Shown in pieces: positions 42,757 through 43,024 of a stretch of 43,101 nucleotides of DNA. This DNA comes from Clostridia bacterium. Lineage in GTDB: Bacteria; Bacillota; Clostridia; Oscillospirales; Butyricicoccaceae. The stretch spans positions 1-43,101 of the forward strand of contig JAFOPS010000017.1 of assembly GCA_017394205.1 (NCBI GenBank), read 5' to 3'. The translations under genes were made by a program, and so were the position numbers. How positions within the stretch are numbered: the first letter of the stretch is position 1; each line of letters starts with the position of its first letter. The notes under the pieces were generated by a model, which did not search any database, had not been told where the DNA came from, and worked only from the letters and a program-made list of their open reading frames with translations.

Positions 42757-42832
42757 GGGGGTATAGCTCAGCTGGGAGAGCGCTTGAATGGCATTCAAGA
42801 GGTCAGCGGTTCGATCCCGCTTATCTCCACCA
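42757..42832 (+). tRNA. tRNA-Ala, anticodon GGC
   Basis: 76 bases including an encoded CCA. The 7-base anticodon loop ATGGCAT in the stem CTTGA/TCAAG gives anticodon GGC (reads GCC). Acceptor stem GGGGGTA pairs with TATCTCC and contains the G3-U70 pair that identifies tRNA-Ala. D-arm TAGCTCAGCTGGGAGAGC and T-arm GCGG-TTCGATC-CCGC are normal. Confidence 0.95.
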
Positions 42833-42833
42833 A

Positions 42834-42868
42834 AAAGGCAGTCATCCGAAAGGATGGCTGCTTTTTTT
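42834..42868 (+). terminator. Terminator after tRNA-Ala
   Basis: About 10-bp stem around GCAGTCATCC/GGATGGCTGC with GAAA tetraloop, then seven T. Confidence 0.85.
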
Positions 42869-42880
42869 ACATTTCGGGGT

Positions 42881-42896
42881 GAACCGCTGACCTCTT
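42881..42896 (-). repeat. 16-bp inverted copy of part of tRNA-Ala
   Basis: Positions 42881-42896 (GAACCGCTGACCTCTT) are the exact reverse complement of 42797-42812 in the tRNA (anticodon-stem end, variable loop and start of the T-arm). Confidence 0.85.
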
Positions 42897-42940
42897 CCAA
42901 CCGATCCAACGGTCAGCCCCGCCGACGGCGCAAGCCGTTG

Positions 42941-42970
42941 GCGGTTCGATCCCGCTTATCTCCACCAAAA
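42941..42970 (+). repeat. 30-bp direct copy of the tRNA-Ala 3' end
   Basis: Exact repeat of 42806-42835: T-arm, 3' acceptor strand, CCA and four A. Offset 135 bp. No matching 5' half is present, so this is not a full tRNA. It is preceded by an 11-bp GC-rich hairpin (42918-42943) with GCAA tetraloop that shares the first bases of the copy. Such 3'-end copies are typical marks of tRNA-directed integration or of a decayed second tRNA gene. Confidence 0.85.
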
Positions 42971-42972
42971 TT

Positions 42973-43024
42973 GAGAAATCCGAACTTCGTTCCGATAGGA
43001 ACGGCGCTCGGATTTCTTGTTTTA
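42973..43024. terminator. Second terminator-like hairpin downstream of the tRNA copy
   Basis: Outer 9-bp stem GAAATCCGA (42975-42983) / TCGGATTTC (43008-43016), inner 6-bp stem CGTTCC/GGAACG, then TTGTTTT. From here to 43101 (about 77 bases) I see no feature I can name. Confidence 0.65.

Follow-up and report, generated by a model that had tools for sequence, protein, structure and literature searches.

What is the short, repeat-rich segment that follows the tRNA-Ala gene near one end of this contig, and how did parts of the tRNA come to be copied into it? The window analyzed here is the whole of contig C126 of genome G000 (43,101 nucleotides), which stops 80 bases past the second of two intrinsic terminators (T1 and T2) located downstream of the gene. 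A sequence-only reading had described the tRNA, the first terminator, an exact 16-bp inverted copy of a tRNA segment, a 30-bp direct copy of the tRNA 3' end, also exact, at an offset of 135 bp, and the second terminator, all of which were re-found. The features of the locus, referred to below as the Ala unit, are as follows.

42757 to 42832, plus strand: tRNA-Ala, anticodon GGC, CCA encoded (ARAGORN; Rfam RF00005, 61.4 bits)
42833 to 42868, plus strand: first intrinsic terminator, T1, AAAAGGCAGTCATCCGAAAGGATGGCTGCTTTTTTT (identified from sequence)
42881 to 42896, plus strand: exact 16-nt inverted copy of tRNA nucleotides 41-56 (42797-42812), left arm of the base stem
42886 to 42917, plus strand: hairpin 1, GCTGACC (42886-42892) with GGTCAGC (42911-42917), loop 42893-42910 (fold prediction; homologue in G105)
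42919 to 42944, plus strand: hairpin 2, CCGCCGACGGC (42919-42929) with GCCGTTGGCGG (42934-42944), GCAA tetraloop of the GNRA type at 42930-42933 (fold prediction, also for the G105 unit)
42941 to 42970, plus strand: exact 30-nt direct copy of 42806-42835 (T-arm, 3' acceptor strand, CCA and AAA), whose first bases form the right arm of the base stem
42974 to 43021, plus strand: second terminator, T2, AGAAATCCGAAC...GCTCGGATTTCTTGTTTT

The direct copy is identical at 30 of 30 positions and comprises 27 nt of tRNA followed by AAA. The tetraloop hairpin is present with the 11 pairs previously assigned to it, but lies one base away from its earlier placement, and one of the pairs is G-U. No second tRNA is detected by ARAGORN downstream of tRNA-Ala. 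Upstream of the tRNA, the window contains a Lys/Arg-rich open frame of 58 residues without a Pfam match (42471-42647); on the minus strand, the end of another open frame (43060-43101, ...YCGTFIEAVIGKSA and stop) runs off the end of the contig.

The 16-nt inverted copy is not due to chance, since shuffled downstream regions never reach 15 nt: a 14-nt inverted match arose in 2 of 20,000 Markov-shuffled sequences, and one of at least 15 nt in 0 of 20,000. As RNA, the region 42868-43024 has a folding z-score of -7.2, to which T2 contributes a part; without T2, the value is -4.9. In the predicted fold, GAACC of the inverted copy pairs with GGTTC of the direct copy, extended by CGGGGT/ATCCCG, and this stem closes a junction that holds the two hairpins. 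According to this model, the inverted copy is likelier to pair with the direct copy of its own unit than with the tRNA itself.

Among 87 genomes searched within the family, one has a homologue of the Ala unit: G105, a member of another genus. This homologue is 80% identical in the unique part, retains the 16-mer and has the same predicted fold (z = -7.5 with its terminator), with one G-U/A-U change in the stems. An independently assembled relative thus carries a homologous unit, from which we conclude that the Ala unit is not an assembly artefact, a possibility that had been raised earlier. A second, truncated copy is found 300 bp further on in G105. It comes after a segment with several palindromes (GGGGCCCCCACAAGAGCCC..., L107:121-300), which is located between two near-identical terminators 3' of the G105 unit. 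In its own genome, the Ala unit occurs once in a genome-wide search, and no further close copies were detected by exact pattern in 394 genomes of the order. Exact-pattern scans of genome and viral contigs returned the G105 contig only, the remainder being chance or plain-tRNA matches, while phage records contained nothing beyond ordinary-tRNA T-arm matches and terminator fragments.

The plan of the unit, as distinct from its sequence, recurs at other tRNAs. A covariance model built from the window and G105 units matched a locus in the sister species G006, behind tRNA-Pro(CGG). There, the inverted copy corresponds exactly to nucleotides 41-56 of tRNA-Pro and the direct copy to the 3' end of that same tRNA. 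Another, degenerate unit is found 143-144 bp further on, and the array is flanked by genes for a class I aminoacyl-tRNA synthetase (valS-like) and a sodium:alanine symporter. The same plan is found behind tRNA-Met in G105. Covariance matches (R1) at or below about 27 bits were mostly plain tRNA-Ala genes or chance, and a 35-bit R1 match in G072 is a terminator hairpin.

We then surveyed essentially all tRNA genes of G000, G006, G105, G005 and G060, mostly fragmented genome bins, by recording the longest exact copy of each tRNA within 500 bp downstream (210 tRNA genes, including E. coli tyrT/tyrV). Inverted copies of at least 12 nt follow 13 of the 210 genes and direct copies of at least 12 nt follow 16, counts in which short or decayed units are underrepresented by the 12-nt threshold. 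Controls with reversed or complemented tRNAs yielded no copies of this length; among 8,124 mismatched pairs of tRNA and downstream region, inverted copies of at least 12 nt occurred in 29 and direct copies of at least 15 nt in 10. When shorter or degenerate units judged by eye are included, four of the five genomes contain the plan, at about 18 tRNA genes or approximately one in ten:

G000: Ala, Pro(GGG), Ser(TGA), initiator Met, and a decayed unit at Arg(ACG)
G005: Gln(CTG), Ser(TGA)
G006: Pro(CGG), Ser(CGA), Leu(CAA), Arg(ACG), Thr(GGT), Arg(CCG)
G105: Met, Arg(CCT), Thr(GGT), Trp, Tyr, and Ala, for which the link to the tRNA is inferred because the contig starts within the unit

No unit was detected at the 12-nt threshold in G060, from another genus, apart from one chance-like match. 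In the surveyed units both arms match the local tRNA, with direct copies of 15-42 nt. The part of the tRNA from which the inverted arm is derived varies, being nucleotides 32-45 in Met and the 3' side of the T-arm in Tyr and Ser. In no unit is the 5' part tRNA-like in direct order; it is inverted or foreign instead. Tandem units are present at Pro, Thr, Met, Ser and Arg, and several contigs stop part-way through a unit or through a second copy of it, as expected from tandem repeats.

For most of the 13 complete units, a branched fold is predicted in which the tRNA-derived arms form all or part of the closure (z-scores between -1.4 and -6.5); the closing stem is absent from the minimum-energy prediction in some units, with Pro and Gln as the exceptions. 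In G000 and G105, the initiator-Met units share a nearly identical fold of 65 pairs (97.7% of cells paired), in which nine pairs have changed on both sides; in controls with the partner columns slid, 0-1 such pairs are left. This formal covariation is that of two sequences of the Met family, and the Ala unit lies outside the comparison. Hairpin 1 is also altered on both strands between the Ala and Pro units, changes that we do not count as independent covariation because both strands follow the tRNA sequence. The compensated helices imply, and would fit, selection on a folded strand, RNA or single-stranded DNA alike.

To relate units at different loci, inserts were compared after masking the tRNA-derived stretches. 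Related inserts are found behind different tRNAs: Leu and Arg(ACG) in G006, Tyr in G105 and Ser(TGA) in G000, and Arg(ACG) and Ser(TGA) in G000. These three pairs outscore all shuffled comparisons (0 of 3,060). The loop motif of hairpin 1, CTTCY.AY..ATC, is seen again in Pro and Arg units at other loci. The Pro and Leu arrays of G006 have in common a 72-bp stretch (70 of 72 identical; L152:1594-1660 and L282) that starts from the CA of CCA, so that a Pro-type inverted arm is located behind tRNA-Leu. The corresponding tRNA in sister species mostly has no unit. An exact repeat of the terminator lies 3' of the unit in the arrays at Thr, Ser(CGA) and Arg(CCT), within the extent of the contigs. Based on the shared inserts, the 72-bp piece, the absences in sister species and the repeated terminators, we conclude from these sequence comparisons that units duplicate, exchange between tRNA loci and vanish quickly. 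A terminator resembling T2 (GAGAAATCCGAAC...) is also found after the CCA of tRNA-Val(GAC) in G000 (L047, about 5740-5790), and another 3' of the Gln unit in G005 (downstream in L331); terminator modules seem to be exchanged between loci too.

Elements of this kind have been known since 1978 in E. coli as tRNA-linked repeats, or TLRs (Egan and Landy 1978 and Rudd 1999, as described in PMC8144298). They are defined as repeats behind several tRNA loci, with one to five copies at each. Ten loci of E. coli K-12 carry 22 TLRs in all, and the last 18-19 bp of every TLR are those of the tRNA or rRNA gene located upstream; they have no known function, and three of them, rrA, rrB and rrF, are transcribed via terminator read-through (PMC8144298). 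The Ala unit has the position of a TLR, an exact copy of the tRNA 3' end, counterparts at several tRNA loci and the tandem habit. We therefore consider it probable that the Ala unit is a TLR, a structured element with fast turnover that is probably transcribed. Membership rests on anatomy, because the Rfam model of RtT RNA (RF00391) is not matched above its cut-off in any of the 394 genomes of the order, whereas E. coli does match; the Arg(ACG) unit of G006 gives a weak full-length match of 25.7 bits, below the 45-bit cut-off. By this model search, the Ala unit is outside the RtT sequence family. A small RNA was among three options offered by the sequence-only reading and is the closest of them, in agreement with the transcribed TLRs of E. 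coli (PMC8144298), although the suggested pairing with the tRNA is less likely.

By analogy with E. coli rrB, RNA polymerase would read through T1 such that the unit is made as RNA at a low level. The inverted and direct copies of this RNA are predicted to pair, closing the branched hairpin structure. Its tRNA-like 3' end may, again as in rrB, guide trimming of the 3' end, and T2 would end transcription. Tandem duplication could account for spread, together with exchange events whose junctions lie at the shared CCA end.

A reading compatible with TLR identity is that the units are mainly mobile or selfish DNA, in which a structured single-stranded intermediate is copied between tRNA loci and template switching or gene conversion regenerates its arms from each new tRNA, with no RNA function needed. 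Inserts common to different tRNAs, across genera too, agree with this, as do the near-identical 72-bp piece in the G006 Pro and Leu arrays, the tandem copies, and the sister species mostly devoid of units at the same tRNA. However, no transposase or integrase was found next to units, ordinary recombination may also account for exchange, and the compensated changes in the helices imply that a folded strand is under selection, although that strand could be single-stranded DNA. We regard this reading as a serious contender, while leaning slightly against it.

Integration does occur at tRNA-Ala(GGC) in relatives. Copies of its 3' part that resemble attR sites, starting in the D-stem or anticodon loop and extending to CCA, are present in L040 (G023:C9), L041 (G007:C7) and L042 (G013:C34). 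The intact tRNA is located 11 and 40 kb upstream in L040 and L042, respectively, and L041 has two 3' copies 10 kb apart. Such copies are typical of integrative elements at tRNA-Ala. Other elements are inserted at the D-loop, in L043 (G048:C13), L048 (G002:C41), L053 (G008:C168) and L145 (G105:C17). They supply a complete new tRNA-Ala, and a 22-nt 5' half-copy remains about 110-130 bp upstream. L053 has a large serine recombinase beside the tRNA (Pfam Resolvase and Recombinase), and a ParA-type gene is found in G105; where examined, D-loop elements bring a serine recombinase.

The Ala unit could accordingly be viewed as a scar, or an attL/attR pair, of an integrative element that used the T-loop of tRNA-Ala and has been reduced to 135 bp. 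What holds of this earlier proposal is that the 3' end of tRNA-Ala is heavily used by integration in relatives: the gene is a hotspot, with direct 3' copies of 43-63 nt about 6-40 kb downstream in several relatives and D-loop insertions with serine recombinases in others. However, a search for attL/attR partners in relatives gave element ends of a different kind, none of those seen having the inverted copy or the hairpins, and for this reason the Ala unit is not merely another att site. It carries no cargo, and its plan is small and gene-free, with a shared fold behind many tRNAs. The Pro array lies between valS and the symporter gene, and no integrase was detected among the Pfam-scanned genes beside that array or downstream of the G105 Ala unit. 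A scar would leave unexplained the recurrence behind many tRNAs, the closed fold, and the housekeeping flanks without integrase where both flanks are visible. The integration-scar reading is weak, and we consider it very unlikely.

That the unit acts as an antisense RNA, using the inverted copy to bind tRNA-Ala or the tRNA precursor, appears highly improbable. Sixteen bases are exactly complementary to nucleotides 41-56, and similar stretches are present behind Pro, Thr, Arg and Ser tRNAs, but the inverted part is predicted to pair inside the unit, the region is hidden in the mature tRNA, and its position in the tRNA varies between units, from the anticodon region in Met to the T-arm in Tyr and Ser. 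Decay of a second tRNA gene in tandem, the remaining earlier proposal, is scarcely credible: the last 30 bp are indeed tRNA sequence, but an inverted arm is present, inserts are common to different tRNAs, the 3' part is retained although no unit has a tRNA-like 5' part, ARAGORN detects no second tRNA, and no relative has a normal second tRNA-Ala at the locus. The Ala unit is not an isolated scar, nor is it a tRNA in decay, and the second-tRNA reading has no support.

Further candidates were tried and rejected. The Deinococcus Y RNA model (RF01053) scores 22.4 bits against a cut-off of 80, the core motifs of an integron attC site do not fit by eye, and the D-loop att sites of relatives, considered as models for a serine-recombinase attP, are unlike the Ala unit.

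Returning to the TLR interpretation, it is conceivable, if on balance doubtful, that TLRs constitute a class of mobile, structured non-coding elements that spans phyla and resides behind tRNA genes, with both arms re-made from each new tRNA. If true, the fold of a TLR persists while its sequence and host tRNA change. The presence of this anatomy in distant Clostridia, with compensated helices and with inserts that move between tRNAs, shows that it arises repeatedly in bacterial genomes and is no peculiarity of enterobacteria, and the many independent Clostridia cases now allow RNA, mobile element, or both, to be tested against each other. We know of no earlier description of TLRs outside enterobacteria, a statement that does not extend to Rudd 1999.

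Among known systems, integrative elements at tRNA 3' ends, which use tyrosine or serine recombinases, resemble the Ala unit in their direct repeat of the tRNA 3' end; the unit differs in its small size, its inverted arm, and its lack of integrase or cargo. The E. coli TLRs are closer. Like the Clostridia units, they are non-coding, located directly behind a tRNA or 5S gene whose 3' end they copy, and may be in tandem or between two terminators. RtT RNA (RF00391, rttR of tyrT) has the same position and plan: the tyrT repeats consist of an inverted 10-mer, an insert and a direct 3' end of 19 nt, three times over. Exact inverted T-arm copies of 13, 13 and 9 nt are present at lysQ (L372), lysV (L364) and proK (L370), together with direct 3' ends of 18-19 nt, and at lysQ an identical terminator is found on either side of the unit. 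No inverted copy of at least 8 nt is present in the argQ, argZ, lysT and lysW TLRs. The inserts of the two groups are unrelated, the bacteria are distant, the direct copies are 15-42 nt long in Clostridia compared to 18-19 in E. coli, and the Clostridia Met unit is anchored in the anticodon loop. The rrA, rrB and rrF RNAs share the order of gene, T1, structured unit copying the 3' end of the gene, and T2, and in E. coli they are products of read-through at T1. They differ in being located behind 5S rRNA and in binding Hfq and CsrA (PMC8144298). Their place is conserved among enterobacteria, whereas the Clostridia units turn over quickly.
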